From: a virus
Direction: 5' to 3' (one strand)
Virus record (IMG/VR): IMGVR_UViG_3300034106_002306
Span: 1 to 61,029 of that record
DNA: 61,029 nucleotides
Numbering within the stretch: position 1 is the stretch's first letter; the number at the start of each line of letters is the position of its first letter. This document shows, in pieces, positions 6,547-59,341 of the stretch. The notes below the pieces were generated by a model, which did not search any database, had not been told where the DNA came from, and saw nothing but the letters and a program-made list of their open reading frames with translations. The position numbers were made by a program, and so were the translations under genes.

Positions 6547-6550
6547 AATT

Positions 6551-8450: not shown

Positions 8451-8452
8451 AA

Positions 8453-8947: not shown

Positions 8948-8948
8948 A

Positions 8949-9329
8949 TTAGTATGTTATTTCTGGATTAATTACAAAATAGCCACCTTCAACAGTACGA
9001 GCATAATCTTCTCCCGAGAAAACTTGAACATCGTATAATAAGTAACTAGATGGTAAAGCCGCCATTCCTGTTCTACCTATGCTGATATCGATATATCCGC
9101 TGACAAAACTTTCTCCTGCGGCTCCTGATATGATTTGTGGCTTTAAGTCTAATAAAATACCAGAGCTTGGTACATACACATTGTCGTTTGTATACCCTGC
9201 CCCATAACTTGCCCTTACATAGCCAGAAGCCGTGAAGCCCGATAAGTTCATTACAACTCCATCAGAGTCACGGGCAACAAGTCTCTTATAAAAAGAGTTT
9301 CCTTGTGTACCTGTTAAATTCATACACAT
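8949..9329 (-). CDS. BppU-like N-terminal domain virion protein
   Basis: 126 aa. It has the pattern of small phage baseplate or fibre-attachment domains: LTGTQGNSFYKRL at the start, DGVVMNLSGFTASGYVR, then a Leu-rich strand pair, and an ending close to FVINPEITY. This resembles the BppU N-terminal fold found in baseplate upper proteins. Two starts are possible, ATG at 9329 or at 9323; the second gives the cleaner family start MNLTG. A late-promoter-like box overlaps the start region. Confidence 0.55.
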   Translation of the reverse strand: MCMNLTGTQGNSFYKRLVARDSDGVVMNLSGFTASGYVRASYGAGYTNDNVYVPSSGILLDLKPQIISGAAGESFVSGYIDISIGRTGMAALPSSYLLYDVQVFSGEDYARTVEGGYFVINPEITY

Positions 9330-9337
9330 TATTACAC
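9330..9337 (-). promoter_or_regulatory. Candidate late promoter box
   Basis: Minus strand TGTGTAATAATG overlaps the first possible ATG (9329), directly after a terminator T-tract. If used, the start at 9323 would be the likely translation start. Confidence 0.4.
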
Positions 9338-9361
9338 AAAAAAAGCCCCTTTCGGGGCTTG
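9338..9361 (-). terminator. Rho-independent terminator after Ig-domain gene
   Basis: Minus strand AAGCCCC-GAAA-GGGGCTT followed by TTTTT. Confidence 0.85.
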
Positions 9362-9380
9362 AGAAGAGATATTTTAAAAA

Positions 9381-10208: not shown

Positions 10209-10255
10209 TTTCTTATTTTAATCTAAAATTAATTTATTCTAATATTTTTTACACT

Positions 10256-12376: not shown

Positions 12377-12387
12377 ATAGTTTTAAA

Positions 12388-13569: not shown

Positions 13570-13572
13570 ATT

Positions 13573-19100: not shown

Positions 19101-22100
19101 CATTACCATTACCAACTGGTACAACACAAACATCATTTCCACCATAATTTAAATAAAGAGGTACACTTCCTTGGCTTTGAACTTCGGCTGCTGTCGCATT
19201 AGTGCCTAATGCTAAAGTAGTTGTCCCATTAGTTATTTTTTCTTGAAAGACTGAACCTAATGTTCCCGGACCGCTTACATTAAGTAAAGATGAAGCATTT
19301 GTTACTCCTATTCCAACATTGCCACCCATCAATGCCAACTTTTGTGTATCAATTCTTAGACGGGTAGTATTGATTATAAAAATATTTCTATTACTGAAAT
19401 CAAAACAGACTATATTGCTTCCATTCCAAGCCCAACCAGTAATATTTGGCGGGAAAGTAGTTATAGTAGCAAGCGGAGTTCCATCTAATCCTACTTTATA
19501 AATATTTGCACCATTTTGTGTTGCCCATAAATAAGAACCATCATAAGTAATAGCTTGCGCAGATATAGTCCCCGCCGCCCCTACATACGTTGAAACTAAA
19601 TCAATAGAAGAGCCATTCCATTTATAAATATACAATGTTCCAGAATAAATTAAATATAAATGACCATCTGCATATTCAACATCGTAAGTAGCATTAATAG
19701 CAAGAGTCGCTGATTCCGCAATTATTGTAGCTGTTTGAGTTGTAGTGTCTAAATCATAACCTACTATTTTACTTGCGGAACCTGTATAAACTACGCACCA
19801 TAAATATCTACCATCCCAAGCAGCACCATGAGGAGCGCCATATCCAGATGGAAGAGGTAATGTTACGAAATAATAACCATAAGCATTAGTTATTTGAACA
19901 AAATTATTATCATAAAAATACGCACGATAATTCGCTTGATCAGTAAAAATATAATGCTTGCCAGTCCAAACAATGCCTCTAAATTGAGTATTTGCGACAA
20001 GCTTACCAGTATCATAATAAGTTATGCCTGAATCAGTAGCGTCTGCGCCAAAAGAACTAATACCCGGATAAGAAGTGGTATAAGAAGCTGTTTTGTGAGA
20101 GAGGATATTAGAACTAGGTCTAATCGTACCAACTACGTCTAATTTTGCCCCCGGAGCAGTAGTTCCTATTCCAACATTATTGTCATAACCTACTGACATC
20201 ATTACAGTAGCGGCAACATTAGCTACTCTATTTATAGCAAAATCAATTCTTGTATCTGTGTTGCTATTCCAATAAGGAGTAATTTGAGCGCGATAACCAG
20301 TGCCAGTATCGAATCTTAATTGAATACCTTTGCCTTGAGTAGAAGCTATATCTAAATTAAAAAGAGCATTTTGTAAATTTCCTACTCCAAGATAACCACC
20401 ATTTGTAAGTACAAGGACATTGTTAGCATTTACATTTCCATTATAAGCTATATTTAAAAAGTTAGTATCAAGACCAACAGAATAAAAAACACCACCATTT
20501 CTTTGAAGTCTTACTACTTCAGAAAAAGCTCCCTGAGCATTATTAATATGCAAACCTCCAGAAGGAATAGTGGTGCCAATTCCTACGTTAGCACCATTTG
20601 GATTTAATAAAAGTGGATAATTAAAATTTAATGCAGTTTCATCTGTTGATTGAATCCAAGCACCATTTCCTGCTGCTCTAATGCCAAAATCTAGGACAGC
20701 GTTGTCTGTAGTATTGCTTATTCTGAAAATTCCACTTTGAGTTGCGGCAATAGAAGCAGGATTACCAACAGTTCCATCGATTTGGAATTTTTGAACTGGG
20801 AAAGCTGTACCAATTCCTACTCTCCCCGCTTCATTTGTAAATATCTGTTTTGTATTTGCGGAAGTGGCGATTTGATAAGTGTAAGGTTGAACCCAGAAAT
20901 TTGATAATGATACCGCACTAGGAGAAGGGCCATTTACTGTTACTGTAATAGTATTAGCAAGACCAGTACCGAGACCATTATTTACAGCACCATTAGTTTT
21001 TAAAACTAAAGATACGCCTCCAAAACCAGTAACAGGATTATCAGATAAAACTAATAATGTGACATCATCAGGGCTGCAACCATAAACAGCAAATTCTTGC
21101 AATTTTGCAGAACACCATATTTCATTTGGCCTATAAGATATATTAGAACTAACTAGAAATGATCCCGCCCAACTAATATTTCCACCATTTACTAAAACTT
21201 TGACTGTTTGAGATGTATAACTAGAATTTCCTAATATTATAGAGTATTGGCCCCAGTTAGCAGCAGCAGTCTTAGTGACTGAAGAATAATAAGCAGAGTT
21301 AGAATTATAAATTAATCCTGCGACGTTAAGAGATCCATCTGTTTTAATGGTATCTTCGGCGGCGCGATAAAGATTTGCTTGAGCATCATTGCCAAATGTA
21401 ATACCGCTTGCAGCAGTCGTTGAACCCGCTCCACCAATTGCGAGAAGAGAAAGAGGGGTTACTCCACCAATTGAAACTTGAGAGTTATTTAAAACTTTTA
21501 ATGAACTTTTCCAGTTAGCGTGAGAAACTGCTCCTCCAATATAAGATCCAACATCTACTAGTGGAGTAGTCGTGCCACTATAATCACCTACTAATCTTAA
21601 ACCAGCAGTAGACTGATCCATTCCAATACCAGCCCATCCACTATATGTACTTAAAATTAAAGGATTATTAGCTACAGTATTACCAAAAGAAAGAGCAATC
21701 GCCGCAGTTGTTCCTGAGATAGATAATTTAGATTGAGGATTTGTACTTCCTATTCCAATAAATCCATTATTCTTAATAAATAAACCATCATAAGTGCCTT
21801 TAAATCTACTATCTGTTACTGGAAATTCATATCTGTTGAAGCCAAGAAGACCAGCAACAGTTGCGCCTGTACCTGTCGCAGTAGTTTCTGTTAATACAGT
21901 GTTTGCCTTTATTCTCGCAAAAACCGCCATTGCGGCACAAGCACCACCCAAGGATCTAAAACGCAAATCAACAGCACCGCCAGTAGTAGCTAATCTAGCA
22001 TCAACAACCACACCATTAGGCTCACCTGCATAATGAGCTTGAGTTCTACTTGGTAATTGAACCCAATCTGTTGTCGCTCCAGTATAAAAATTAGCAATCA

Positions 22101-23616
22101 ACTCAAACATTGAGTATTCAATTGTGCCGCAATCATGATGAAATATTTCAATAGTAGCTCTAATAGAATTAGCAGAAGCAGCTAAAGCTCCAATTTCTGT
22201 AAAACTACCTGCTGCGGCGGCGACACTTCTTGCTATAGCTATTACATGCTCGTCTGCATTAGTATCATTTAAATTCCAATACAAACTTCCTTTTACATGC
22301 AGCCTTTTAGTTGGGTTAGTTGTATTTATTCCAAAATTACCATTTGATCCAATATAAGCACTTTCGTTGCTAGTATTTGTCCTAAAATACATCGCAGAAT
22401 TTGCCGCTAATATCATGTTTCCATTACTTGACGCTTTCGTAGCTATGCCAAATGAACCACCATCTCTACCTCCAACTATTTGGTTACTACCAATTGTTCC
22501 TAATTGAACTTCGTCACCATTGGTTCCAGTTACATGTAGTTTAAAAGCAGGATTTGTTAAGCCTATACCAACATTCCCACCGCTTGCAATATAAACAGTA
22601 GCACTTCCTAAAATGTCTGTAAATTGAATACCATTTGCTCTACCATATAATTGGCCAATAAAATTATTCGTTTGATCATTAAATAATGCAATACCATAAC
22701 CACCAGCAGGTCCAATTTGACCAACGCCAGTAACCCTCAAAGACCCAGCGACTTCTAATTTCGCTGAAGGATTATTTGTACCTATGCCAACATTACCATT
22801 AGTAGTAGAGAATATAGGAGCAACAAGCATTGAGTCTCCTCTAGACAAATACTGACCCCTTACTTCGCCATAATCTAAACCTTTGCCTTTATATATTTTA
22901 ACTTCATCTATTATTCCATAGAAGAATTGGCCGACGGCGTGAGCGGATCTACCAATGTATCCCGCTGAAGCCACTTGAATGTTTGAACTATTTGCAACAG
23001 AAGATATTCTTGTTCCGTTAGAGTATACATTTAAAACAGAACTAACTCTTGTTACGACAATATGATACCAAACATTAGCTGCCCAAACTATAGCAGGAGC
23101 AGTTATTAAAGAATTTTGGACATATACCTCTATAGTATTAAGATTAGCTTGAGGTCTAATTAGTATACCTGCTGTATACAGGCCAATTTCTATTAAGGTA
23201 TTATTGAAGCCAGCAAAGCTACTATTGGGTCTACACCAAAGTGAAACAGCAAAATCTCCAGTTCCAAAATCAAAATCAGTACTATCAGGCACAACTACAT
23301 AATTAGCATTGCCTCCAAAACCATCTAAAGCTGTACCTCTTATAGCAGTCGTCGTATAAGTTAAGCCAACAGAAGATGTATTATTTCTTCCTGTTTTATC
23401 TGATATTAATAATCCTGACCCTTCGTCAAATCCATAATAAGCCACTAACCCGTGATCGCTTGGAGCTGTTATTGTAGAATCGTTTGCTATTCTATAAAAA
23501 GACGAGCCGTCTATATTAACATTTCCAACGACATCTAGTTTAGCTCCGGGAGCCGTTGAGCCTATGCCTACGTTATTTTCATTTGTTTGAATTGCGGGAA
23601 TTGTTTTATTAGCCAT
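16183..23616 (-). CDS. Giant repeat-built tail fibre, 2477 aa
   Basis: The protein consists of dozens of units ending in a signature such as GNVGIGTTNPxxKLHV, a hallmark of trimeric beta-helical phage fibre and adhesin stalks. Residues about 50-265 form a LamG lectin domain (GLVAYYGFDEGSG, VSLWCRPN). An unrelated insertion near 1160-1430 has YDGSYLW and WDGRYLWCVVYTG repeats that resemble beta-propeller blades. No intramolecular chaperone (peptidase S74) motif is seen at the C-terminus, which ends in PGDTVFIPLYK. Long internal modules are shared with the next gene. Probable role: side or central fibre for host attachment. Confidence 0.85.
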   Translation of the reverse strand: MANKTIPAIQTNENNVGIGSTAPGAKLDVVGNVNIDGSSFYRIANDSTITAPSDHGLVAYYGFDEGSGLLISDKTGRNNTSSVGLTYTTTAIRGTALDGFGGNANYVVVPDSTDFDFGTGDFAVSLWCRPNSSFAGFNNTLIEIGLYTAGILIRPQANLNTIEVYVQNSLITAPAIVWAANVWYHIVVTRVSSVLNVYSNGTRISSVANSSNIQVASAGYIGRSAHAVGQFFYGIIDEVKIYKGKGLDYGEVRGQYLSRGDSMLVAPIFSTTNGNVGIGTNNPSAKLEVAGSLRVTGVGQIGPAGGYGIALFNDQTNNFIGQLYGRANGIQFTDILGSATVYIASGGNVGIGLTNPAFKLHVTGTNGDEVQLGTIGSNQIVGGRDGGSFGIATKASSNGNMILAANSAMYFRTNTSNESAYIGSNGNFGINTTNPTKRLHVKGSLYWNLNDTNADEHVIAIARSVAAAAGSFTEIGALAASANSIRATIEIFHHDCGTIEYSMFELIANFYTGATTDWVQLPSRTQAHYAGEPNGVVVDARLATTGGAVDLRFRSLGGACAAMAVFARIKANTVLTETTATGTGATVAGLLGFNRYEFPVTDSRFKGTYDGLFIKNNGFIGIGSTNPQSKLSISGTTAAIALSFGNTVANNPLILSTYSGWAGIGMDQSTAGLRLVGDYSGTTTPLVDVGSYIGGAVSHANWKSSLKVLNNSQVSIGGVTPLSLLAIGGAGSTTAASGITFGNDAQANLYRAAEDTIKTDGSLNVAGLIYNSNSAYYSSVTKTAAANWGQYSIILGNSSYTSQTVKVLVNGGNISWAGSFLVSSNISYRPNEIWCSAKLQEFAVYGCSPDDVTLLVLSDNPVTGFGGVSLVLKTNGAVNNGLGTGLANTITVTVNGPSPSAVSLSNFWVQPYTYQIATSANTKQIFTNEAGRVGIGTAFPVQKFQIDGTVGNPASIAATQSGIFRISNTTDNAVLDFGIRAAGNGAWIQSTDETALNFNYPLLLNPNGANVGIGTTIPSGGLHINNAQGAFSEVVRLQRNGGVFYSVGLDTNFLNIAYNGNVNANNVLVLTNGGYLGVGNLQNALFNLDIASTQGKGIQLRFDTGTGYRAQITPYWNSNTDTRIDFAINRVANVAATVMMSVGYDNNVGIGTTAPGAKLDVVGTIRPSSNILSHKTASYTTSYPGISSFGADATDSGITYYDTGKLVANTQFRGIVWTGKHYIFTDQANYRAYFYDNNFVQITNAYGYYFVTLPLPSGYGAPHGAAWDGRYLWCVVYTGSASKIVGYDLDTTTQTATIIAESATLAINATYDVEYADGHLYLIYSGTLYIYKWNGSSIDLVSTYVGAAGTISAQAITYDGSYLWATQNGANIYKVGLDGTPLATITTFPPNITGWAWNGSNIVCFDFSNRNIFIINTTRLRIDTQKLALMGGNVGIGVTNASSLLNVSGPGTLGSVFQEKITNGTTTLALGTNATAAEVQSQGSVPLYLNYGGNDVCVVPVGNGNVGIGITNPGDKFQVNLNSGENILANIRSNGVSANNKVGFKLSELGVALGEFSAVRDGTSYQVKLQTLNNQPLSFGTSGTTRMVIDGSFVGIGSTTPTALLNVRASIPAGIGTTPAGTNVLLDSNASNYITFRNSADNGTYAGLVFLDNNVGGYVAFGNAGAAVGSDSMIYGAYQDHIFQNNYVNENLYNRPETMRIKQNGRVGIGTNTPTTLLSVGGLGSTTAASGITFGGDTEVNLYRIGENILKTDGNFQIVGSLELRDILYHYSNIRFLNKAGSNWLTWFTRDTSESEAVARLDYIRSINTTTAGNLGIGTTLPSGKLHVVSSVSNDTVFRADGTNGTLFSVVDDLSDSLMSVNNSAGLPVLEVFADDRIVMGQYGSGDLVVKNNEVGIGTNNPINKLSVIGNASIGSNTYNVAAPANGLIVEGNLGIGTTNPASKLQVNGEIRIASSSSFFTHLNYLDGGSNIISSTNGGSTSFRGSSNNLTSMVVYGDGTVSTNYNTYLAVTNGNVGIGATAAAQKLDVRGFVVSDANSNAVAGGFFVGGSSHGMRREAGSNDVRLHTNGGDLIFGAAGSGSQQVTLKNGGNFGINITTPTSRLHVVETTPTGSRIQLGSISTSALMNANLVNDFLILTAPFNAVPASNSNNNAKWGIKMGGGSVDAPNALEKSACIYAVSEEDIGAGGAGAGYNRKVGLALHTSPFDLPNVERVRINNLGNVGIGLTNPAYRLQVSGGDVSIASANILRFGTVAVLNTASSANDIYANIRVLRNESTVNTDGMFINYNSNGATAAHLRFYANGTSERMRIDASNGYVGVGTTVPDTKFDVYDDVNGGNISAVRNANTGSNAFAALVFRRNSNLNGLVMFTNSSNRSTDGGLGNSTIRTDNGKLLLGAGASTYHSLETNGNVGIGLTNPAAARLHIKGDGTAPVLRVETAQLVGAAGGTAGKTFVGWMPIQTGAANPGDTVFIPLYK
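17930..18140 (-). repeat. Module shared between the two giant fibre genes
   Basis: Encodes SDSLMSVNNSAGLPVLEVF and flanking residues. Near-identical copies occur at about 25130-25340 and 30800-30990 in the 2685-aa fibre. Confidence 0.75.
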
Positions 23617-23620
23617 ATTA

Positions 23621-26600
23621 TTATGTTACTGATGCTTGTTGTCCCATTACATGATATGTAATTAGAGATGAATTTGTTGAAGAAGTTGCAGAAATTAATT
23701 TTAATTGTATTAAAAAGTTTTGAGTACCTGCGGCTGCTGGATCTACTATTTGGATATCTATTTTGTCTCCAGCGGGTCCTCTTGTATTGTCATGAGCAGT
23801 TATGATAGTTCCGGGTTCTCCGTACCCAGCATTATCACCATTCTGAATAAATAGTTCAGATACAAACGCTACTGCGCTATGATTACTCCAGTCTCCAAAT
23901 GCTCCAATCTTGACATAGCAAGAATTGTGAGCCAACATATTAACTGTCAATACAGTAGTCCAAGAAGCAGTGCTTAATGTCACTGTCTTTTGACCATATA
24001 TGTGACCATTTAAACTGGTAGTACCTGCTACTACTAGATTTCCATCTGTTTTTATTGTATCTTCGGCAGATCTATATAAATTTGCTTGAGCATCGCCTCC
24101 AAAAGTTAATCCGCTTGCTGCTGATGTAGAGCCGGGACCACCAACTGATAATAATGTAGTTGGACTTACTGTTCCTATTCCGACACTGCCAGCAAAATAA
24201 GCAGAGCCATTTGTTAATGAAATATAAGACTGTAATGTGCTGGTTCCTCCGCCAATGAAACCAATTGAATTTGCAGGAAGATTTGATACAGCCGAGTCAA
24301 TTTGACGATGATAAATTCCCCAGTTGCTTGATGTATCAGCGGAATCCAAATAAATCCAAGAATCTCTGTCATTTGCTTGAGAATATAAAAATACATTTGA
24401 TGCTGGATTAACGGTGGTATAAGTATTGAGAACTAGGCTATTTATTCCTCTGTATCTTTCTCCCCTTATTGTTCCACTAACGTCTAAAGTATAAATTGGT
24501 ATTGTTGTAGCTATGCCTACATTTCCATTATTACGGAAATACATTCTGGCACCAACGCCTTCCTGCCAAATGTAAAGGGCAGGACTAGTTGCATCAGTAT
24601 CTCCGACATTACCAATTCTCCATTTTCTTACTCCGTTAGTATGTATGAAAAGTCCACCATATCCATTAGAAGAAGCATAATCGACAATAAATCCGGGTTC
24701 TATCGCTCCACTTGCAAAAGATCTTATCGCTGTTCCGCTAACATCTAATGCCCATGCAGGGCTTGTCGTTCCTATTCCAATTGCGTTAGAAGTTAGTGAG
24801 ATAGTACCTTTAGGTATAAATCCATAAGTAAGGTCTAATCTATTACTAGCATAATAAATTAATCTAGCATTAGAATCACCTCCAACAGAATTTGTAAAGT
24901 CAATATAAGCTCCATTTGTTCCCAACAATTGTAATTGAGCATAATTATCTGCATTATTAAAGCCCATTGAACCCGCTTTATTTAATCCATATCTACTTCC
25001 AGCAGAAGAATTATCAGAAACTACAAAGGGCCAGTTAGTATCAGAAGTTGAAGCGTTTATTCCTAATGAGCCATTTACATCTAATTTGTAAGATGGATTA
25101 GAAGTTCCAATTCCAACTTTATTATTAACCAATACAAAATCACCACTTCCATATTGCCCAGCAACAATTCTATCATCAGCAAATACCTCAAGAACTGGGA
25201 GACCAGCAGAGTTATTGACCGACATTAAAGAGTCGCTTAAATCATCAGTGACTGAAAAAAGAGTACCATTGGTTCCATCTGCTCTTAATACGGTTTCTCC
25301 AGCAACAGAAGAAACTATATGAAGTTTTCCGCTAGGAGTATTGGTGCCAATGCCAACATAACCACCCTTCTTTATCGTAAGAGGATAGCTTTCCCAATTA
25401 TTACCAGCATTATTGCCAACATTTAAAACTAAATCAGTAGTAAAACTTCCGGGATAAATATTACCATTAGATGTTTGTAAATAAGTTCCCGCAAGTATAT
25501 ACGCACCTGCTACAAAACTGCCATCTGTTTTAATTTGACTAGTTGATGATCTATAAAGATTCGCAGAAGCATCTCCACCTAAAGTTATACCGCTTGCTGC
25601 TGTTGTAGAACCTGCGCCACCAACTGACAAAAGAGTAGTTGGAGTATTCGTACCTATTCCTAATTTACCATCAGATGTAATTCTAGCTTTTTCAGTGTTA
25701 TTTGTATAAATTTGAATGGCATGAACACCGATTGTAGATAATACTGTTCCATTATTGTCTGCTCCTATAGCGAATCCTGCATCCGTAGCAAGATCTCTCG
25801 TAAACGTAGCAAGAGTAGCAGATGTATTAAATACATGTAGTGGAGAACTAGGAATTGCTGTACCTATTCCAACTTTGCCATCATAAGTAAATCTAACCGA
25901 CTCTGTTAAATTGCTATTTCCAGTAGCTCTTCTGGAAGAGAAAGCTAAATCACCTATACCAAATCCTTGACCATTTAAAAATAAAGATTTAATTGCCCAC
26001 TGAGGAGTATAAGTATTAGCATCATTTAAAGTAGCAAATAAAACTGCGCCACCTTGATTTGAATTATTAAGAGAGCTTCCTACTAGAATTGAACCTCCTT
26101 TATTACCACCATCAACTAAATCAGCAGTTGCTTGATTTGCGCCAATTACTGTTAATTGATAATTTGGATTCGTTGTTCCTAAACCAACATAACCATCGCT
26201 TTTTAAAACAAGAGAATTTACCATATTTGTATTAGTAAATGCTCCCGCTGTTACGTTCATGAACCCAAATATCTTATATCCAACTGCTGGCGCAAATGCT
26301 TCAAAATAAGGTCTATAAGCTTGTGTAGATTCAACGGTTCCTGCTAATTCATTTGTCCAATTTAAATTTTGACCATAAGTATACCAAGGGCTGTTTTGCG
26401 AAGAATGATAAGTATGTTCAGATGTTCTGATGCCTCCATTAAGTCTTGTTATATTTAATCCAACGTTAGTAACCGAGTCGTTACCAATTTGAGCATTTCC
26501 TTGTACTTCTAATCTTTGAGTAGGATTTGTCGTTCCTAAACCGACATTGCCAGCAGTCGTCAAAATATGTTGACTTCCTCCCGCTCCTAAAAGTAAATTA

Positions 26601-29600
26601 CCATAATCAGTTCTTATTGTAGAATTACCTGTACCACCGTCAGTGCTTCTAGTAGATGAATTTGTAAATAAAACTATGCCATTATTTCCACCATCTCTGC
26701 GCAATACAAATGCTGTATATGCGTTTGATCCTGCGTTTAGATTTCTGACATAAGACAATAATGGACCATCTGTATTATCATAAACATCTAATTTACCAAT
26801 GGTGCTTACTGTTCCAATTCCAACAGTGCCATCTGATCTAATTCTAACTTTTTCTGAAGAAGCCCCATCTAAAGTCGTATAAAAAGCCAAATAACCATCT
26901 TGAGTACTTGCAGTTGAAGTGAAATTTTGCTCTGCGGCGGCGACTATTCTTGCTCCCAAAATTGCAGTACCTGCCGCAGCAGAATTACCTCCATATCCTA
27001 AATTAAAATTAATAGAGGCACCATAATTTGTTCCTGTTTGAGTATTTTCAAGAGTTAATAAGTTATAAGCACTATTATCATTTCCTTTTATTAATAATCC
27101 AAGAACTGAAGAGAAAGTAGAATATCTTGCATTAGCGTCTCCTTGAACTACCTGCAATTTTCCAGCAGGATTGGTTGTAGCAATTCCAACATAACCATCA
27201 GAATTAATCCTAATTCTTTCTACATTATTAGTATAGATTTGCCAGTATCCACCACTAGATGGTAAATATCTTATTGCTGTATGAGAATTTGTTGCATCCC
27301 AAATAGAAAAAGAATTAGAACCATTATTATCTTGATCAACATAAAATGCATATTTTGCATCATTATTTGCTATATCTAAAGCTAGTAATTGATCTTTAGC
27401 TCCTTTATTAATAGACAACTTAGCGGTTGGAGCAGTAGAGTTTATACCGACATTACCGGCAGATGTAATTCTAACTCTTTCTGTTTGTTGAGTATGAAAT
27501 GTTGTATGATTCCAACTGCTTAAAATCATTCCGTCAATTACAGAATCATATTTTAGATACTGAGAAGAAATATCATTCGCCCAACTTATAGCAGAGCCGC
27601 TTCCAGCGGCCATATAAATACTACCATTAACATTTAGTTTTAAAGGAGCAACGCTTGTGCCAATTCCAATATTACCATTAGATAAAATTCTTAAAGCTTC
27701 TGTTTGAGTAGCAAAGCCTACTCCAAAAGCCATTCCATAAGATGCACCGCTTGGATTAAATTCAATATAAGCTTGATTTGTTACATCTGTACGTTTTTGG
27801 ATCTTTGTGCTGGCAGTTGTCCAGTCTCCTCCTGTTGCAAAACGTGTTTCTACTAAATTAATTTGCGAAACATTTCCATTATTAACAGCATAAGTAAATC
27901 CAGTAATAGTAGACCCAGCAGGAATACCGGGTAATGTTCCTGCATTTATATTTAAAGTAGTAACGGTAGTAGTATTAGTGTTAAAATTGCCATTAACTAC
28001 TAAGCTACCATCTGTTCTTATCGTATCTTCGGCTGATCTATATAAATTTGCCTGAGCGTCTCCTCCAAAAGTTAATCCGCTTGCTGCTGAAGTTGATCCA
28101 AGTCCGCCAAGAGAAAGAAGTGTTTGTGGATTTATAGTTCCAATTCCAACTTTGCCATCAGCCTTAAATACAGATATACCACTAGCACCAGCAGAAAGAA
28201 CAATAGAATTAGGATTAGCTGAAAGTAAAATCAAATCATCAGAAATGCCTCCGGTGACAGCAGACGCTAACCCGATGCTGGCTTCTGGAGTTTGTGCTTT
28301 ATAAAATTCAATTTGAGAACCTGCATTATTTCCCGTACTTCCTACTAGTCTAACCGTAGCAATGCTTGATACTGTACCGCTATTTATTATATGTAATTTT
28401 ACGGTAGGATTAGTTGTTCCTATTCCAACATTTCCGCCGTTTGCTACAGTAACAGCATTAGAATTAGTAGTTCTATTAAAAATAGCAAATCCATTTGTGC
28501 CATCTGCACCAGCGGACCATAAATTACTTGTACTGCTTTGGAAATCCATCCAAGTACCAGCAGTTGATCCAGAAATGAATATCAATTGGTTGTCGCTTGA
28601 AGTGATATGAAGTTTTCTAAGTGGATTAGTTGTGCCGATACCAACATTACCTACATCAGTTACTGTCATTTTTACTGTTGGATCTGTAAGAACGCCTCTG
28701 GTGTATATATCTAAAATTCCCCCAACACTTCCAGCACTAACCGGCCTATTTCTAAACACAACGTGACTATATAGTCCTAATGCGAGAGATGTTGGATTAG
28801 CATCAGTTGCGGCGTCTATTAAATTCAACGTATGAGTATAAACACTTGTATTAGTTGTAATATCAGCGTTGATAAACATTGCTCTTTGATTTAAACCAAG
28901 TGTACCTGCTGAAACATAAAGTTTAGCATTTGGTGATGTTGTGCCTATACCAATATTACCATTATGGTAAATACGCATTCTTTCGGCATAAGTTTGGTCA
29001 TTGAGTTGATTTGTATAAAATGCTAAACTTGTGCCTCTATTGTAACCCAAAGTATCTTCGCTGACAGCATAAATTGCTGAAGTTTTCCCTAAGCTATTTG
29101 AAAGAGAATCGACCGCTCCAATAAATTTAATACCCCATTTTGCTCCAATATTAGAAGTTGTCGCTGAATTAACGCCATAAGGAGCATTTAAAATTAATAA
29201 ATCATTTGTAGAACCCGAATTCATCAAAGCACTTTCAGAAGAAGTACCTAATTGAATTCTTGTTCCTGTTGCAGTAGTTTCTACTACATGCAATTTAGAA
29301 GTAGGAGAAGTCGTATTTATACCTACATCACCACTACTATCAATATAGACGGCATTGGTTAATCCATTTGTTTGAAAGTATAAATCTGAACCGCCTAATA
29401 TTAAACTTTGATAAGAGCCAGCCAAAGTATTGTCTACGCCCTGTATATAAGTGCCAGCAGAGTTGAGATTAAATCTTACTCCTTTAGTTGCGCCTGCCAC
29501 AGAAAAAGCATATGTACTATCAGGACTTACAACATGTAATCTACCATTTGGAGTAACTGTACCTATTCCTACATTTCCTCCAGAAGTTATACTCATTAAA

Positions 29601-31678
29601 GTACTTCTTCCGCCACCACCAACAGAAGTCTGAGTACTAAAATATAAACTTTGACCACTTGCCCAATCAAAATAATTTATTCCATTATTTCTAAACAAAG
29701 AAAGTCTAGAGTTATTTCCTTCGCTAATTAATTCTCCACTTGCTCTTACTGATCCAATTACATCTAATTTATAACCGGGGTTACCTATTCCAATTCCTGC
29801 GTTTCCACTAACTAATAAATTTGAGGTTATATTGGTAGTGCCATTTATTTTTGAATCACCAAATACTTCAAAAGTATCAGAAGACTGAGAGTGCGCTCCA
29901 AATCTTACTAGATTTATGTATTGATTAGCAGTGCCTCCCGCTTGTTGTAAGTATAAAGGAATATTTGAGGAGCGATCTACTTTTATGAATCTATGTCTAT
30001 ATTGACCATTTGTATATGTATTATGATCGAAAACTAAACCAAAAACTCCAGTAGCATTTGGAAATATATTAGAATCAGGAATTCCTGATTGACTAGTAAA
30101 TCCCATGTTTCTCAAGTGTAGTTGACCTGATGGATTAGTTATACCTATTCCAACGAAGCCATTATCATAAATGCTTCCAGTAACTAATTCTTTAGACGTA
30201 TTCCAACGAGGAACATAATATTGCGTTCCAGATCCAGAAAGAAAAGTTTGAATTTCGTAACCACTTAGAGAATTAATCCTAGCGTTAAGAGTTGAACCAG
30301 TTGCAGCTAGGTTCGTGTTCGTAGTGTTGATCTTCGTATCAAGAGTCGAACCAGTGGCAGCTAGGTTAGTGTTCGTAGTGTTAATCTTAGTATCAAGGGT
30401 AGAACCAGTAGCAGCTAGGTTAAGGATCGTCGCAAAGTTCGCGTTGGAATAACCACTCAGAGCATTGATCTTCGTATCAAGGACCGAACCCGTAGCAGCT
30501 AGGTTAAGGATCGTTGCAAAACTGTTGTTGGAGTACCCACTCAGAGTGTTGATCTTTGCGTCGAGAGTCGAACCAGTTGCAGCAATGTTTCCGCTCAAAG
30601 AAGTAATCGTTGGAGAAATTATCCCAATAGCGACCTCTAAAGAACCATCGGTTTTAATTCTTGAGCTAGATATCCTATACAGGTTAGCAACAGCATCGCC
30701 ACCAAAAGTTAAGCCGCTTGCTGCTAAAGTAGAGCCCGCGCCACCAACTGACAACAGAGTAGTTGGAGAGGCTGTGCCTATACCAACTTTATTATTTATA
30801 AGAACAAAATCATTTTGTCCATACTGACCCATCACGACTCTATCATCTGCAAATACTTCCAATACTGGTAAACCTGCGGAATTATTCACCGACATCAAAG
30901 AGTCACTTAGATCATCATTTACAGAAAATAAAATTCCATTTGTACCGTCTGCTCTAAGGACAGTTTCACCAGCAACTGAAGAGACGATATGAAGTTTACC
31001 TGTTGGTTGAGTAGTTCCAATTCCAACATAAGAACCTCTTCCAATAAATAAACCAGCTTCCCAAGCATTTTGGGCAATATTTCCAACAAATACTGTTAAA
31101 GCTCCATAAGGAGCCCCGGCATAAATTTGTCCACCAGCAGTTTGTAAATACGAAGCAGCATATACATAAGAAGAAGATGCCAAAGAAGCAGCAGTAAAAG
31201 CAGCATCTGTTTTTAACACAGAATCAGAAAGTCTATATAAATTTACAACGGCGTCTCCACCAAAAGTTATTCCACTTGCCGCAGAAGTGGAACCCGCACC
31301 ACCAACAGACAAAAGGGTTGTTGGACTAATAGTACCTATTCCAACATTTGTACCATTATCATATATACTTCCAGTAATTAATAACTTGCTCCCATTCCAA
31401 CGAGGAACATAATTAGTAATACCATTACCAGATAAAAAAGTATTATTCGCATATCCACTAAGAGAATTTATTCTATTATTTAATAAGGTTCCAGTAGCAG
31501 CAATCTGCCCACTTAAAGCAGCAAGATCAGTATTACTTGAATCTGCTTGCCACATTACGCCAGATGATGTAGACGTTAGAACTTGACCGGGAGTTCCTAA
31601 ACGACTAGAGTAGTCAAATATAAAACCGGATATCTGAATGCCCGTAGCAAATAATTCATCTATAGCAAATTGCGCCAT
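23621..31678 (-). CDS. Giant repeat-built tail fibre, 2685 aa
   Basis: Largest gene of the window. After a short N-terminal attachment region it has a heptad-like part with repeated LAATGSTLDTKINT units (about residues 350-470), then tens of VGIGTTNP-type units. Recurrent modules include TTLLSVGGAGST and the SDSLMSVNNSAGLPVLEVF block. The C-terminal 130 residues form a different, beta-rich domain, a candidate receptor-binding tip. It is followed 4 bp later by the 2477-aa fibre, so the two are probably co-expressed. A late-promoter-like box lies at 31693-31710. Confidence 0.85.
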   Translation of the reverse strand: MAQFAIDELFATGIQISGFIFDYSSRLGTPGQVLTSTSSGVMWQADSSNTDLAALSGQIAATGTLLNNRINSLSGYANNTFLSGNGITNYVPRWNGSKLLITGSIYDNGTNVGIGTISPTTLLSVGGAGSTSAASGITFGGDAVVNLYRLSDSVLKTDAAFTAASLASSSYVYAASYLQTAGGQIYAGAPYGALTVFVGNIAQNAWEAGLFIGRGSYVGIGTTQPTGKLHIVSSVAGETVLRADGTNGILFSVNDDLSDSLMSVNNSAGLPVLEVFADDRVVMGQYGQNDFVLINNKVGIGTASPTTLLSVGGAGSTLAASGLTFGGDAVANLYRISSSRIKTDGSLEVAIGIISPTITSLSGNIAATGSTLDAKINTLSGYSNNSFATILNLAATGSVLDTKINALSGYSNANFATILNLAATGSTLDTKINTTNTNLAATGSTLDTKINTTNTNLAATGSTLNARINSLSGYEIQTFLSGSGTQYYVPRWNTSKELVTGSIYDNGFVGIGITNPSGQLHLRNMGFTSQSGIPDSNIFPNATGVFGLVFDHNTYTNGQYRHRFIKVDRSSNIPLYLQQAGGTANQYINLVRFGAHSQSSDTFEVFGDSKINGTTNITSNLLVSGNAGIGIGNPGYKLDVIGSVRASGELISEGNNSRLSLFRNNGINYFDWASGQSLYFSTQTSVGGGGRSTLMSITSGGNVGIGTVTPNGRLHVVSPDSTYAFSVAGATKGVRFNLNSAGTYIQGVDNTLAGSYQSLILGGSDLYFQTNGLTNAVYIDSSGDVGINTTSPTSKLHVVETTATGTRIQLGTSSESALMNSGSTNDLLILNAPYGVNSATTSNIGAKWGIKFIGAVDSLSNSLGKTSAIYAVSEDTLGYNRGTSLAFYTNQLNDQTYAERMRIYHNGNIGIGTTSPNAKLYVSAGTLGLNQRAMFINADITTNTSVYTHTLNLIDAATDANPTSLALGLYSHVVFRNRPVSAGSVGGILDIYTRGVLTDPTVKMTVTDVGNVGIGTTNPLRKLHITSSDNQLIFISGSTAGTWMDFQSSTSNLWSAGADGTNGFAIFNRTTNSNAVTVANGGNVGIGTTNPTVKLHIINSGTVSSIATVRLVGSTGNNAGSQIEFYKAQTPEASIGLASAVTGGISDDLILLSANPNSIVLSAGASGISVFKADGKVGIGTINPQTLLSLGGLGSTSAASGLTFGGDAQANLYRSAEDTIRTDGSLVVNGNFNTNTTTVTTLNINAGTLPGIPAGSTITGFTYAVNNGNVSQINLVETRFATGGDWTTASTKIQKRTDVTNQAYIEFNPSGASYGMAFGVGFATQTEALRILSNGNIGIGTSVAPLKLNVNGSIYMAAGSGSAISWANDISSQYLKYDSVIDGMILSSWNHTTFHTQQTERVRITSAGNVGINSTAPTAKLSINKGAKDQLLALDIANNDAKYAFYVDQDNNGSNSFSIWDATNSHTAIRYLPSSGGYWQIYTNNVERIRINSDGYVGIATTNPAGKLQVVQGDANARYSTFSSVLGLLIKGNDNSAYNLLTLENTQTGTNYGASINFNLGYGGNSAAAGTAILGARIVAAAEQNFTSTASTQDGYLAFYTTLDGASSEKVRIRSDGTVGIGTVSTIGKLDVYDNTDGPLLSYVRNLNAGSNAYTAFVLRRDGGNNGIVLFTNSSTRSTDGGTGNSTIRTDYGNLLLGAGGSQHILTTAGNVGLGTTNPTQRLEVQGNAQIGNDSVTNVGLNITRLNGGIRTSEHTYHSSQNSPWYTYGQNLNWTNELAGTVESTQAYRPYFEAFAPAVGYKIFGFMNVTAGAFTNTNMVNSLVLKSDGYVGLGTTNPNYQLTVIGANQATADLVDGGNKGGSILVGSSLNNSNQGGAVLFATLNDANTYTPQWAIKSLFLNGQGFGIGDLAFSSRRATGNSNLTESVRFTYDGKVGIGTAIPSSPLHVFNTSATLATFTRDLATDAGFAIGADNNGTVLSTIGVHAIQIYTNNTEKARITSDGKLGIGTNTPTTLLSVGGAGSTTAASGITLGGDASANLYRSSTSQIKTDGSFVAGAYILAGTYLQTSNGNIYPGSFTTDLVLNVGNNAGNNWESYPLTIKKGGYVGIGTNTPSGKLHIVSSVAGETVLRADGTNGTLFSVTDDLSDSLMSVNNSAGLPVLEVFADDRIVAGQYGSGDFVLVNNKVGIGTSNPSYKLDVNGSLGINASTSDTNWPFVVSDNSSAGSRYGLNKAGSMGFNNADNYAQLQLLGTNGAYIDFTNSVGGDSNARLIYYASNRLDLTYGFIPKGTISLTSNAIGIGTTSPAWALDVSGTAIRSFASGAIEPGFIVDYASSNGYGGLFIHTNGVRKWRIGNVGDTDATSPALYIWQEGVGARMYFRNNGNVGIATTIPIYTLDVSGTIRGERYRGINSLVLNTYTTVNPASNVFLYSQANDRDSWIYLDSADTSSNWGIYHRQIDSAVSNLPANSIGFIGGGTSTLQSYISLTNGSAYFAGSVGIGTVSPTTLLSVGGPGSTSAASGLTFGGDAQANLYRSAEDTIKTDGNLVVAGTTSLNGHIYGQKTVTLSTASWTTVLTVNMLAHNSCYVKIGAFGDWSNHSAVAFVSELFIQNGDNAGYGEPGTIITAHDNTRGPAGDKIDIQIVDPAAAGTQNFLIQLKLISATSSTNSSLITYHVMGQQASVT
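25130..25340 (-). repeat. Shared fibre module, copy 2
   Basis: Encodes the SDSLMSVNNSAGLPVLEVF block and VGIGT border, close to the copies near 17930 and 30800. Confidence 0.75.
30270..30580 (-). repeat. Tandem coding repeats (LAATGSTLDTKIN units)
   Basis: Five or more copies of a short unit encoding LAATGSTLDTKINT and LSGYSN-type linkers. Two adjacent copies are almost identical at DNA level. Codon choice is less AT-rich than in the rest of the fibre gene. Confidence 0.75.
30800..30990 (-). repeat. Shared fibre module, copy 3
   Basis: Third copy of the block encoding SDSLMSVNNSAGLPVLEVF. Confidence 0.75.
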
Positions 31679-47290: not shown

Positions 47291-47632
47291 ATGAGGAACA
47301 AATTTCAAGTTACAGTTGTGAACCCTAAGACTTGTAGGAAGAAGATTTGTTGTGAGGGGTGCGAACTGTCATATAGCAAAGAAGATTATTTATTATTCTT
47401 CACTGTTCGTAAACTTGTTTATTTTAATATGATTGCTGAAGATGGGAAGCAAATGAAGATTTGTGACTCTTGTTTAGTGTCTCTCGCTTCGATGACTTGC
47501 GCGAAATATGATTTACCATATATTACTATTATAATTAAAGGTGAGGAAAATACAAAACAAATAAATATCGAGTATACTGAAGACAAGTTATTCGAAGAGG
47601 AGTTAATGAAAGTATTTAAGAAGATTAAGTAG
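47291..47632 (+). CDS. Small Cys-rich protein, unknown
   Basis: 113 aa. CCEGCELSY near residue 20 and CDSCL near residue 60 suggest one zinc site. The C-terminus is charged. It is transcribed from the divergent region with PhoH (AT-rich ATGTATTATATATA before the ATG). The last 30 bp overlap the 3' end of the HNH gene on the other strand. Confidence 0.55.
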   Translation: MRNKFQVTVVNPKTCRKKICCEGCELSYSKEDYLLFFTVRKLVYFNMIAEDGKQMKICDSCLVSLASMTCAKYDLPYITIIIKGEENTKQINIEYTEDKLFEEELMKVFKKIK

Positions 47633-48118
47633 TCTATTGTATTTTTCGCCGTTTCTCTCTTCTCGCGGTGAGTTGATTATTATATATTCCAGCATGTTAA
47701 TCGCGGAATGGAAATTGTTTCTATTTTTTAGGGAGTTGCCTTCATAAGAAACAATCTTAACATTCCCCGGCACATAGCCCTTATTTGGATCTATCCTATC
47801 TAACGATGCTGATCTTTTATTATCTATTCCTGATTTGTATAGGATTTCGTGGCCTAAAATGGGGCAGGTATTATTTTTAATGTTTATTAAATCCCCCAGC
47901 GTAAGGTTGAATTCCAGATTTTTCTTTTTTGAACGCTTTTTTGCTTTGCTTAAGATGACTTTTTTGAGATAAACTATCTCGCCTCCATCAACGTTTCCCA
48001 TCTTTTCTTTAATTTTATTGTATTCTTGGGAGTAGCAACAGGTGTTACATTTGCCTTTTACTCTGTTGAAATCTGTATCTTCTTTGTTAGCCCCGCAGAC
48101 AGAACATTTGATTAACAT
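47603..48118 (-). CDS. HNH endonuclease-like protein
   Basis: 171 aa. Two N-terminal CxxC pairs (CSVCG, CNTCC) form a zinc ribbon, followed by a basic linker. The region CPILGHEILY, then SLDRIDPNKGYVPGN and a following NxxxN, is the signature of phage HNH-type nucleases related to free-standing homing endonucleases. No intron is visible nearby. It may be selfish or act in DNA processing. Confidence 0.72.
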   Translation of the reverse strand: MLIKCSVCGANKEDTDFNRVKGKCNTCCYSQEYNKIKEKMGNVDGGEIVYLKKVILSKAKKRSKKKNLEFNLTLGDLINIKNNTCPILGHEILYKSGIDNKRSASLDRIDPNKGYVPGNVKIVSYEGNSLKNRNNFHSAINMLEYIIINSPREERNGEKYNRLLNLLKYFH

Positions 48119-48489: not shown

Positions 48490-48924
48490 CTATTCTACGT
48501 TCGCCACGCTGTCAAGCCTGAAAAGCAGGAACTCGGGATCGTCCTTGTCGGGAGTGTATTCCCGGATCGTGGCGATTTCTTCGGGAGTGGCTTCCCGTCC
48601 GTCCACAAGGAATCGGATCGTCCTTTGGGCGTTGCTTGGCAAGCCCACAAGGTAAAGGTTCCCGTCCGTCTTATGGCGAGCCACGCCGTCCTTGACCCAT
48701 TCCCACCAAGTCGGCTTTCCGACAGGCTCCCGTCCGTCCTTTTCCAAGCGGCGACCGTAGGAACCAAGCCCCGCCACGTTGACGACGACCCTGTGATCCC
48801 TTGTGACCCTTCCCGTCAAGGGATTGAGGGGAACGCCAGACCTGCCGCCCTTGTTCATTTTATGCTCGCCCTGAATCAGGATCGTGGCGACTTGACCGGC
48901 CCGGATGTTTTCGATGTTGATCAT
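48490..48924 (-). CDS. Conserved phage protein, GC-rich copy (unit A)
   Basis: 144 aa, about half identical to the product of 49352-49780 (IRAGQVATIL, GGRSG, GKPTW, DGREAT, DSVANVE are shared). The start at 48924 is chosen because homology begins at MINIENIRAGQ; upstream residues have no counterpart. The gene is GC-rich while its homologue is AT-rich. Function unknown; a small beta-rich fold is likely. Leader about 52 nt after a TTGCAA/TAACTT promoter. Confidence 0.7.
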   Translation of the reverse strand: MINIENIRAGQVATILIQGEHKMNKGGRSGVPLNPLTGRVTRDHRVVVNVAGLGSYGRRLEKDGREPVGKPTWWEWVKDGVARHKTDGNLYLVGLPSNAQRTIRFLVDGREATPEEIATIREYTPDKDDPEFLLFRLDSVANVE

Positions 48925-49043: not shown

Positions 49044-49081
49044 TTGGCACGGTCCATGCTCCCCAGCACGTTTCATGCCAA
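49044..49081. repeat. 38-bp dyad R1
   Basis: Arms TTGGCA and TGCCAA, centre TGCTCCCCAGCA, 7-bp gaps on each side. Confidence 0.75.
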
Positions 49082-49088
49082 GTCTAAG

Positions 49089-49126
49089 TTGGCACACTTT
49101 TTGCTCCCCAGCAAGTCCTATGCCAA
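49089..49126. repeat. 38-bp dyad R2
   Basis: Same arms, centre and length as R1. Each half also fits TGGCA(C/T)-N5-TTGCT, the sigma54 -24/-12 spacing. Confidence 0.75.
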
Positions 49127-49138
49127 GTCCGTCCAAAC

Positions 49139-49179
49139 GATAGTTTTCCAATCTGGGGTCCCCAATTCCGAAAACTATC
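49139..49179. repeat. 41-bp boundary dyad 1
   Basis: Outer arms GATAGTTTTC and GAAAACTATC are perfect complements; core GGGGTCCCC. It separates divergent units A and B. Confidence 0.85.
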
Positions 49180-49191
49180 AAATCCCCATAG

Positions 49192-49229
49192 TTGGCATGG
49201 TTTCTGCTCCCCAGCAAGGGTCGTGCCAA
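49192..49229. repeat. 38-bp dyad R3
   Basis: Same arms and centre as R1 and R2. It lies 12 bp right of dyad 1, mirroring the 12 bp between R2 and dyad 1. Confidence 0.75.
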
Positions 49230-49293
49230 GTGCCCGTTAACGTAGAAAATTAAAGTAGATTTAGTTCTTGTATATATATAAGTATATAGTAAA

Positions 49294-49321
49294 TTGGCAT
49301 AGTCAGTTTGGTTCTTATATA
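49294..49321 (+). promoter_or_regulatory. Promoter of unit B
   Basis: TTGGCA, 16 bp, TATATA. Two copies of TATAAATACAAC follow before the ATG, which may be a second, TATAAATA-type start region. Confidence 0.5.
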
Positions 49322-49351: not shown

Positions 49352-49780
49352 ATGATCAATATAAATACAATACGCGCTGGTCAGATCGCTACTATACTAC
49401 TAGAAGGCGAGTATAAATTAAACACTGGTGGCCGTAGTGGTATACCACTAAATATATACAAAGGCCGTGTCACTAGAAAGTTCCGTTTTACTATATCGTT
49501 GGCGGGTGAAGAAACCTATTATAATATCAATCCCGATGCTATTGGTAAACCCACTTGGTTTGAGTTTATCAAAGACGGCGTAGTGAGAAACAAGAAAACC
49601 GGCCAATTGTATTTGGCTGGCATTCCTCATAACAACAAGAACAACAAGTTTGATTTATATATAGACGGTCGTCCTATTACTAAAGAAGAATACGACTATA
49701 TTCAACAATATCGCCAAGATAAAGAAGAATGCAAGTTCCTCACTATGTCTGTTGATAGTGTAGTAAATGTCGAAGACTGA
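49352..49780 (+). CDS. Conserved phage protein, AT-rich copy (unit B)
   Basis: 142 aa. Homologue of 48490-48924 with shared IRAGQIATIL, GGRSGIPLN, GKPTWFEF and DSVVNVED. Base composition is that of the phage core rather than of unit A. The two genes face away from each other around the dyad cluster. Function unknown. Start chosen by homology; a longer upstream reading frame runs through the promoter and is unlikely. Confidence 0.75.
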   Translation: MININTIRAGQIATILLEGEYKLNTGGRSGIPLNIYKGRVTRKFRFTISLAGEETYYNINPDAIGKPTWFEFIKDGVVRNKKTGQLYLAGIPHNNKNNKFDLYIDGRPITKEEYDYIQQYRQDKEECKFLTMSVDSVVNVED

Positions 49781-50117: not shown

Positions 50118-50146
50118 TTGTTTATAAATAGTTGTTTATAAATAGC

Positions 50147-50187
50147 GATAGTTTTTGATTTTGGACACCCCGAATCCAGAAACTATC
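50147..50187. repeat. 41-bp boundary dyad 2
   Basis: Arms GATAGTTTTT/AGAAACTATC, core GGACACCCC. It lies between the 3' ends of convergent units B and C, so it cannot be only a promoter part. Confidence 0.85.
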
Positions 50188-50799: not shown

Positions 50800-50816
50800 T
50801 TGGCATGGTCCTTGCT
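50800..50816. repeat. Half of 38-bp dyad (TTGGCA...TTGCT)
   Basis: TTGGCATGGTCCTTGCT; 22 bp from its first base to ATAGTTT of dyad 3, the same distance as at 51785. Confidence 0.6.
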
Positions 50817-50820: not shown

Positions 50821-50861
50821 CATAGTTTTCCGATTTTGGCACCCCAAAAGCAAAAACTATA
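50821..50861. repeat. 41-bp boundary dyad 3
   Basis: Arms CATAGTTTTC/AAAAACTATA, core TGGCACCCC; between units C and D. Confidence 0.85.
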
Positions 50862-51380: not shown

Positions 51381-51421
51381 GATAGTTTTTCTTTTTGACC
51401 TGCCCAAAAGCGAAAACTATG
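51381..51421. repeat. 41-bp boundary dyad 4
   Basis: Arms GATAGTTTTT/GAAAACTATG, degenerate core GACCTGCCC; between units D and E. Confidence 0.8.
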
Positions 51422-51784: not shown

Positions 51785-51801
51785 TTGGCATGAGATTTGC
51801 T
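51785..51801. repeat. Half of 38-bp dyad (TTGGCA...TTGCT)
   Basis: TTGGCATGAGATTTGCT, 22 bp from first base to ATAGTTT of dyad 5. Confidence 0.6.
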
Positions 51802-51805: not shown

Positions 51806-51846
51806 GATAGTTTCTGAAATCGGGCACCCCAGATCCAAAAACTATG
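51806..51846. repeat. 41-bp boundary dyad 5
   Basis: Arms GATAGTTTCT/AAAAACTATG, core GGGCACCCC; between units E and F. Confidence 0.85.
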
Positions 51847-52535: not shown

Positions 52536-52576
52536 GATAGTTTTCCGTTTTGGGCTGCCCAGATCCAAAAACTATG
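52536..52576. repeat. 41-bp boundary dyad 6
   Basis: Arms GATAGTTTTC/AAAAACTATG, core GGGCTGCCC; between divergent units F and G. Confidence 0.85.
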
Positions 52577-52991: not shown

Positions 52992-53032
52992 CATAGTTTC
53001 CAGAACGGGGCACCCCAGACGCAAAAACTATC
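52992..53032. repeat. 41-bp boundary dyad 7
   Basis: Arms CATAGTTTCC/AAAAACTATC, core GGGCACCCC; between units G and H. Confidence 0.85.
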
Positions 53033-53508: not shown

Positions 53509-53549
53509 GATAGTTTCGGGCAATGGGCACCCCCAACAAAAAAACTATG
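53509..53549. repeat. 41-bp boundary dyad 8
   Basis: Arms GATAGTTTCG/AAAAACTATG, core GGGCACCCC; between units H and I. Confidence 0.85.
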
Positions 53550-54652: not shown

Positions 54653-54693
54653 CATAGTTTCCGAAATTGGCCTCCCCGAATCAAAAAACTATC
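54653..54693. repeat. 41-bp boundary dyad 9
   Basis: Arms CATAGTTTCC/AAAAACTATC, core GGCCTCCCC; between units I and J. Confidence 0.85.
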
Positions 54694-54710: not shown

Positions 54711-54738
54711 TTGACACTCTCCAAGAATCTGATATTTT
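54711..54738 (+). promoter_or_regulatory. Promoter of unit J (leaderless)
   Basis: TTGACA, 16 bp, TATTTT; 7 nt to the ATG. Confidence 0.7.
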
Positions 54739-54745: not shown

Positions 54746-55138
54746 ATGAACAAAATCACTTTGTCTCTATTTGTCGTCGCCCTTGTAACCCTTGGGTTTT
54801 CCCGCCGCAACCACGGCACGAAGGAAGACTTGTTTCGCGCAATGGCCCAAGTTGAATCTTCAGGCAATCCCAAGGCAATCAACGCCAAGGAAACTGCCCT
54901 TGGAATTTACCAAATCCGCCCCATGTATTTTCTTGACGCTGGAGTCAAGGGGGCGCATAGTCAGGTGTATGACCCTGCGGTCGCCCGTAAGGTCTGTGAG
55001 CGTTACTTTATGCGATATGAGCCTAAAGCTTTTGCCAATAATGACATAGAGACTTTGGCTCGCTTGCATAATGGCGGTCCTAATTGGCGCAAAAAAGATA
55101 CTGATAAATACTGGAATAAAATCAAAAAACACTTGTAA
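54746..55138 (+). CDS. Lytic transglycosylase-like (lysozyme-fold) protein
   Basis: 130 aa. Residues 1-19 form a basic-hydrophobic signal-like or membrane segment. The rest has the SLT fold pattern: FRAMAQVESSGNP with Glu37 as the likely catalytic acid, GIYQIRPMYF (the GxxQ motif) and LARLHNGGPNW. It probably cleaves peptidoglycan, as an endolysin or host-entry enzyme. The first 260 bases are GC-rich and the last 130 are AT-rich, with the reading frame intact. Confidence 0.8.
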   Translation: MNKITLSLFVVALVTLGFSRRNHGTKEDLFRAMAQVESSGNPKAINAKETALGIYQIRPMYFLDAGVKGAHSQVYDPAVARKVCERYFMRYEPKAFANNDIETLARLHNGGPNWRKKDTDKYWNKIKKHL

Positions 55139-55742: not shown

Positions 55743-55783
55743 CATAGTTTCTGGAATCGGGCACCCCGAAGGAAAAAACTATC
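55743..55783. repeat. 41-bp boundary dyad 10
   Basis: Arms CATAGTTTCT/AAAAACTATC, core GGGCACCCC; between units J and K. Confidence 0.85.
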
Positions 55784-56737: not shown

Positions 56738-56760
56738 ACCCCGCCTTCGGGCGGGGTTTT
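56738..56760 (+). terminator. Rho-independent terminator of unit K
   Basis: CCCCGCC-TTC-GGGCGGGG then TTTT, merging with dyad 11. Confidence 0.85.
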
Positions 56761-56800
56761 ATAGTTTCCAGATCCGGGCACCCCGAATCCAAAAACTATG
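56760..56800. repeat. 41-bp boundary dyad 11
   Basis: Arms TATAGTTTCC/AAAAACTATG, core GGGCACCCC; between convergent units K and L, flanked by two terminators. Confidence 0.85.
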
Positions 56801-57802: not shown

Positions 57803-57843
57803 AATAGTTTTTCGCGCCGGGGTGTCCAGTTTCAAAAACTATC
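57803..57843. repeat. 41-bp boundary dyad 12
   Basis: Arms AATAGTTTTT/AAAAACTATC, core GGGGTGTCC (opposite core orientation); between units L and M. Confidence 0.85.
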
Positions 57844-58230: not shown

Positions 58231-58271
58231 CATAGTTTTTTTATTCTGGCACCCCAGACCCGAAAACTATC
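58231..58271. repeat. 41-bp boundary dyad 13
   Basis: Arms CATAGTTTTT/GAAAACTATC, core TGGCACCCC; between units M and N. Confidence 0.85.
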
Positions 58272-59300: not shown

Positions 59301-59341
59301 CATAGTTTCCTGTGCCGGGGTGCCCAAATCCAAAAACTATC
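59301..59341. repeat. 41-bp boundary dyad 14
   Basis: Arms CATAGTTTCC/AAAAACTATC, core GGGGTGCCC (opposite orientation); last copy, ends the cassette region. Confidence 0.85.

Follow-up and report, generated by a model that had tools for sequence, protein, structure and literature searches.

Dyad families at a divergent gene hub and at the cassette borders of an uncultured tailed phage: a putative operator system

In lambda-type phages, the divergent small genes of the cI/cro region flank a group of operators. The stoperators of cluster A mycobacteriophages are 13-bp asymmetric sites, dispersed in many copies of one motif and mainly in one orientation, and the motif differs among related phages in step with the repressor (PMC6550527, PMC9283540). 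In Bacillus phage SPbeta, a repeated intergenic element (SPBRE) is bound by the phage master repressor MrpR, a protein of the tyrosine-recombinase fold; the passages on SPBRE in that report do not describe the element as a cassette boundary (PMC10516654). PeSLs, as far as they are characterized in a paper that cites them (PMC4503421), are regulatory elements repeated in intergenic regions and serving as sites of accessory-gene shuffling; each combines an early promoter with a terminator stem-loop. The open-access literature searched holds no description of the dyad system reported here, which we class with the dispersed operators of phages, as a variant, without assigning it to the stoperators, SPBRE or PeSLs.

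The window (the whole stretch of DNA analysed, 61,029 nucleotides, IMG/VR record IMGVR_UViG_3300034106_002306) contains a cluster of three 38-bp dyads (R1 to R3) and one 41-bp dyad (D1), placed between two divergent paralogous genes, c1- and c1+ (Table 1). The original prediction listed these four dyads with their spacing, and both are exact in the sequence, with gaps of 7 bp for R1-R2 and 12 bp for R2-D1 and D1-R3. All three R dyads have TGCTCCCCAGCA between TTGGCA and TGCCAA, a 12-mer absent elsewhere in the record, and each is imperfect owing to the central CCCC; the three copies of the 38-mer compare with 3e-8 expected by base composition in 61 kb. The symmetry ascribed to the segment 49089-49229 is present in the window, but the segment is no conserved unit, as in one relative (G004) the R3 side has moved with an inverted c1+ cassette. 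In the case of D1, the dyad itself had been noticed, while its membership in a 14-copy family spread over 10 kb had been missed. The reading of the cluster as a regulatory hub is in keeping with its position between divergent paralogous genes and with the recurrence of the R-13-D-13-R layout in nine related hubs. The hub resembles the lambda cI/cro region in that divergent small genes flank grouped putative operators; unlike there, c1- and c1+ are paralogues with no recognised DNA-binding fold.

Table 1. Coordinates of the hub genes, the R and D dyads and the adjoining features in the window.
Feature	Position	Strand	Remarks
c1-	48490-48924	-	144-aa hub protein, leftward; paralogue of c1+
R1	49044-49081		38-bp dyad TTGGCAC..TGCTCCCCAGCA..ATGCCAA
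R2	49089-49126		38-bp dyad, starts 7 bp past R1
D1	49139-49179		41-bp dyad GATAGTTTT...AAAACTATC; 39-bp core member 49140-49178, core GGGGTCCCC
R3	49192-49229		38-bp dyad on the c1+ promoter side
AT-rich tract	49268-49300	+	contains TATATATATA (at 49271); within c1+ leader
c1+	49352-49780	+	142-aa hub protein, rightward; versions A and B follow D type
D2	50148-50186	+	between convergent genes, flanked by two terminators
Single R half-site TTGGCATGGTCCTTGCT	50800-50816	+	5 bp left of D3; upstream of minus-strand gene, pointing away
D3	50822-50860	+	
D4	51382-51420	+	
Single R half-site TTGGCATGAGATTTGCT	51785-51801	+	5 bp left of D5
D5	51807-51845	+	
D6	52537-52575	+	between divergent genes
D7	52993-53031	+	
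D8	53510-53548	+	
D9	54654-54692	+	followed by sigma-70-like promoter TTGACA-16-TATTTT at 54711-54738
D10	55744-55782	+	
D11	56761-56799	+	between convergent genes; adjoining terminator 56738-56757
D12	57804-57842	+	
D13	58232-58270	+	
D14	59302-59340	+	final array member

D1 is the first of 14 copies with exact arms (ATAGTTT-N25-AAACTAT) that are found between 49140 and 59340 at a spacing of 0.4-1.1 kb, whereas 0.002 copies of the arm pair are expected by base composition in 61 kb. A fifteenth, weaker match at 56206, inside a gene, is probably due to chance. Each small-cassette junction between 49.1 and 59.3 kb carries exactly one D, whatever the strand of the genes, and the D-to-D intervals (GC 0.34-0.57) hold one to five small ORFs. 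The assigned strand of most cassette genes with comparable relatives is backed by codon-position substitution patterns; the late genes of this record are found to the left of the hub, on the minus strand. Like D6, D1 separates divergent genes, and apart from these two and the convergent pairs at D2 and D11 the neighbouring genes point in the same direction. Terminator-like sites are enriched (29 against 11.4 in shuffles) and many of them adjoin D; several D sites are flanked by terminators and TTGACA-type promoters, while D itself is neither. The distance from D to the promoter varies between ~5 and 40 bp, a variation not usually seen at simple activator or repressor sites. Ahead of D2, at 50118-50145, there is a perfect direct repeat (two copies of TTGTTTATAAATAG), which is kept in relatives.

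In a scan of 2.9 million viral contigs, the D pattern of this type (type A) was found in 15 related contigs (a match in G012 is probably fortuitous), and the R pattern in 26 DNA stretches, some with D and others without this D. The longer related arrays hold 9-19 copies of D per contig (19 in G009). For type A, 70 distinct sites give a consensus close to ATAGTTTCCnGnTTTGGGCWCCCCAAATnCAAAAACTAT. Within each contig the orientation of D is uniform relative to the backbone, though the genes lie on both strands, and among distinct type-A sites the core orientation is CC in 45 and GG in 4. The complete layout R-7-R-13-D-13-R (counted on the 39-bp core) is exact in G007; R half-sites 13 bp either side of D are also present in G002, G003, G009, G010, G011, G013 and G015, and in G001 they are 12 and 13 bp from D. 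Named phages gave distant terminase matches only, with no match to c1 or to the hub, and no R 38-mer was found in the GTDB genomes searched. Terminase relatives at 37-38% occur in MAG contigs labelled uncultured bacterium, Flavobacteriaceae and Verrucomicrobiales, in which R is absent. The R-D-R arrangement is an easily searched marker for a large group of uncultured phages. Elsewhere in the window, the region 16183-31678 encodes two probable fibre proteins (2477 and 2685 aa) rich in repeat units of the GNVGIGTTNP type.

When the genes of 16 contigs were grouped, the same small genes were found in D-bounded units that vary in presence and order. Among relatives, cassettes have been gained, lost, moved or inverted with breakpoints at D; for the most part, the order of cassettes is conserved. 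Seven arrays were compared: of their 1006 homology-block edges, 38% are 10 bp or less from a D, in comparison to 8.5% at random (maximum 10.4% in 200 draws); the edges of related pairs are not independent, and these values describe an enrichment, not a probability. Site pairs with one common neighbour match at ~0.9 (left neighbour shared) or ~0.7 (right neighbour shared) on that side, and at background level on the other. G004 carries the entire c1+ cassette in inverse orientation between D1 and D2, with the R3-to-D distance of 13 bp kept at the new border, and in G003 and G009 a DUF2958 cassette is inverted and moved. In marking the borders of shuffled modules, as seen from the enrichment of block edges, D is similar to the PeSLs as far as these are characterized in the citing paper; it differs from them in being a dyad resembling a protein site, with an alphabet that switches between relatives. 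D-bounded cassettes offer a natural system for studies of accessory-gene shuffling. In nearly all relatives an endonuclease VII-like gene (47603-48118 in the window) adjoins the hub, and it is possibly relevant to recombination.

In four contigs (G018, G021, G030 and G033), type-A D is absent and a second type, B (AGAGTTGC-N23-GCAACTCT), occupies the hub and the junctions. The core GGGCWCCCC is common to both types, and the arms (AGAGTTGC in B, ATAGTTTY in A) differ at two positions, 2 and 7. The terminases of the four contigs are 96-99% identical to that of the window; G018 and G033 are nearly identical over their overlap and were counted as one observation. There are 15 type-B sites each in G018 and G021, some with up to three mismatches. 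In alignments of orthologous junctions with D11-D14 of the window, the flanking genes are conserved and the core is kept (GGGGTGCCC at D14); in each arm, the same two positions have changed in place on nearly the same backbone. An exact scan of the 2.9 million viral contigs revealed no A/B hybrid sites, and the two types were never found together in one contig. The terminase and most backbone genes of G018 are nearer to those of the type-A window than to those of type-B G021, so alphabet and backbone do not go together. The concerted change of the arms fits a site whose DNA-binding protein changes its specificity. That ~15 sites have changed in concert between phages with 96-99% identical terminases, with no intermediates in the collection searched, opens to testing how a regulator and its many operators shift specificity together.

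With stoperators, D shares the many dispersed copies of one motif per phage genome, the prevalence of one orientation and the variation of the motif between related phages (types A and B, whose backbones are almost the same). It differs in being a 39-bp dyad with two fixed arms, not the short asymmetric site of a monomeric repressor, in its confinement to small-cassette borders, and in its orientation, which is constant though the genes lie on both strands, whereas that of stoperators follows transcription. In the case of SPBRE, the likeness is that of a repeated intergenic element; the sequence differs from D. PF00589 gave no match in 17 records, and MrpR-like proteins may be too divergent for this search.

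Our preferred explanation, which we hold with slightly better than even confidence, is a phage-wide system of operators and cassette boundaries, comparable to stoperators and PeSLs taken together and comprising a divergent-switch hub, D and R as operators, and D as shared homology. On this reading, c1- and c1+ would be a divergent two-gene switch of a tailed phage and the cluster would hold their operators, the hub genes being likely autoregulated. D1 would be one of 14 operators for a DNA-binding protein acting on all early or accessory cassettes at 49-59 kb. Since the arms change in concert, and given the position of D, we infer a protein site, which would act as a roadblock or repressor site. 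Typically, D has the terminator of the preceding cassette on one side and the promoter of the following cassette on the other, and here the bound protein, contacting both arms and the core, may control or insulate the cassettes. Against the operator reading count D2 and D11, as between convergent genes there is no promoter that would need control. R would be a second operator, densest in the hub, for another, more conserved factor in contact with the D protein. Being common to all cassette borders, D could also serve as short shared homology, at which cassettes would be exchanged, moved or inverted by homologous recombination. A bolder version, in which one phage protein reads every border dyad and controls both cassettes and exchange, so that a change of its specificity would rewrite all borders in place and set exclusion groups on a single backbone, is speculative and in our opinion rather improbable.

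The D arms are presumably read by a phage protein, possibly c1+. This protein splits into A and B clades (support 97/95 and 100/99), with identities of at least 62% within A and at most 58% between A and B among true orthologues. Two of the 18 genes testable for separation by D type separate, namely c1+ and the c36 lysozyme cassette, which does so as cleanly as c1+ (at least 83% within A, at most 62% between A and B), while no separation is seen for terminase, portal and PhoH. The paralogue c1- was rejected as the arm reader, as no split of its versions by D type is seen. Neither hub protein has a family match. The AlphaFold model of c1+ (pLDDT 90.7) weakly resembles SH3/Sm-like barrels, and the c1 model lacks a helix-turn-helix. 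In comparison with the PDB, no significant match was found; the best hits, at a VIA-align Z of 4.7, are Pelota and Tudor-like barrels, a resemblance that means little. BFVD gave three matches, all of them uncultured phage proteins, of which one is below E 0.001 and two are weaker. DNA binding by c1+ is a guess. The case for c1+ is weakened by G031, as this contig has B-like arms and no c1+ homologue was found in it. The product of c36 (54746-55138) is an SLT lysozyme, and the sharpness of its A/B difference, equal to that of c1+, is perhaps a sign of different hosts.

The original prediction also considered that the cluster might be an origin of replication, made up of iteron-like protein sites and an adjacent AT-rich tract. 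The dyads are indeed clustered next to such a stretch (69% AT over the 200 bp to the right), and in several relatives three TATAAATACAA repeats follow on the right. These repeats are absent from several other relatives, however, the AT tract is a part of the c1+ leader and leaves with the inverted c1+ cassette, and D recurs at every cassette border, in up to 19 copies per genome. Among the proteins scanned (a subset of ORFs), none was recognised as a replication initiator. Cumulative GC skew, proposed as a check, shows no extremum around 49.1 kb; it reaches its minimum at the right end, and its slope flattens from ~38 kb, near the end of the all-one-strand genes. We therefore consider an origin highly improbable. 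Equally improbable is a function of D and R as hairpins, in RNA or in single-stranded form (terminators or processing sites). Both are foldable (z about -1.6 to -3.9), but positions 8-15/25-32 of D pair no more than in shuffled controls (70 type-A and 28 type-B sites; the exception is the fixed arm position 8 of type B), ordinary terminators stand beside D, and tRNA is the sole Rfam family matched. In this lack of internal covariation for a folded single-strand structure, D is also unlike the attC sites of integrons. The comparison with integrons has more to recommend it if D is taken as the target of a dedicated site-specific recombinase, the region as an integron-like cassette array and the alphabets as recombinase specificities: exactly one D is present per junction regardless of gene strand, its orientation is constant with an asymmetric core (CWC), and exchange breakpoints fall inside it. 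Unlike an integron array, the system shows no tyrosine-recombinase integrase, as neither tyrosine nor serine recombinases were found in 17 records, some of them fragments, nor a Y1 transposase in 14; these searches took in a 79-kb type-B contig and a 203-kb phage, and the contigs may not be whole genomes. A directional recombinase would not normally invert cassettes that lie between D sites of the same orientation, and the cassette order is largely kept. This explanation appears unlikely to us, and the operator and shared-homology reading of D is retained.

In respect to R, a further alternative has to be weighed, which is compatible with that reading of D. The R half-site is TTGGCAYR-N5-TGCT, with T favoured right before TGCT and an exact GG-N10-GC spacing; in 42 distinct half-sites, the free position 7 is Y in 98% and position 8 is R in 100%. 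In the cluster at 49044-49229, and likewise in L038 and L084, it is identical to the bacterial sigma-54 -24/-12 promoter consensus with its GG-N10-GC. The R dyads could then be head-to-head -24/-12 elements, serving as bidirectional promoters, decoys or blocks for host RpoN-RNA polymerase. Besides the agreement of profile and spacing, five direct R copies in L084 and the conservation of R where D is not conserved speak for it. On the other hand, all 11 distinct single R sites beside D face away from the gene they precede, and no sigma-54 activator domain was found in 33 records and no sigma-54 in 14, both of which the host could supply. On balance, the sigma-54 reading of R is a tentative one, possible but below an even chance. 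Its narrower form, a sigma-54 promoter for the cassette genes, was rejected, the orientation of the single sites being wrong and neither activator nor sigma-54 being encoded in the records searched.

The spacings between R and D are fixed, at 13 bp on both sides of D1 (39-bp core) and at 5-7 bp at some other D. R is kept in phages with terminases down to about 37% like that of the window, where other dyads stand in place of D, such as GTAAGTC..GACTTAC in G024, G029 and G027. The 203-kb phage (G025, L036) carries a 41-bp dyad, TTTTGGAGGTGTC..GACACCTCCAAAA, in 12 copies near one end of the contig (ten of them at 2807-14221), and identical R dyads are found beside two of these; the layout recurs here, in a distant phage, with a third alphabet. 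R half-sites also form tandem arrays, namely in L084 (12463-12605; five direct copies 26-28 bp apart), in L092 (6629-6950) and L107 (736-1090), where they are paired with a ~68-bp period, and in L101 (15-162). In appearance, these arrays are similar to centromere or iteron arrays.
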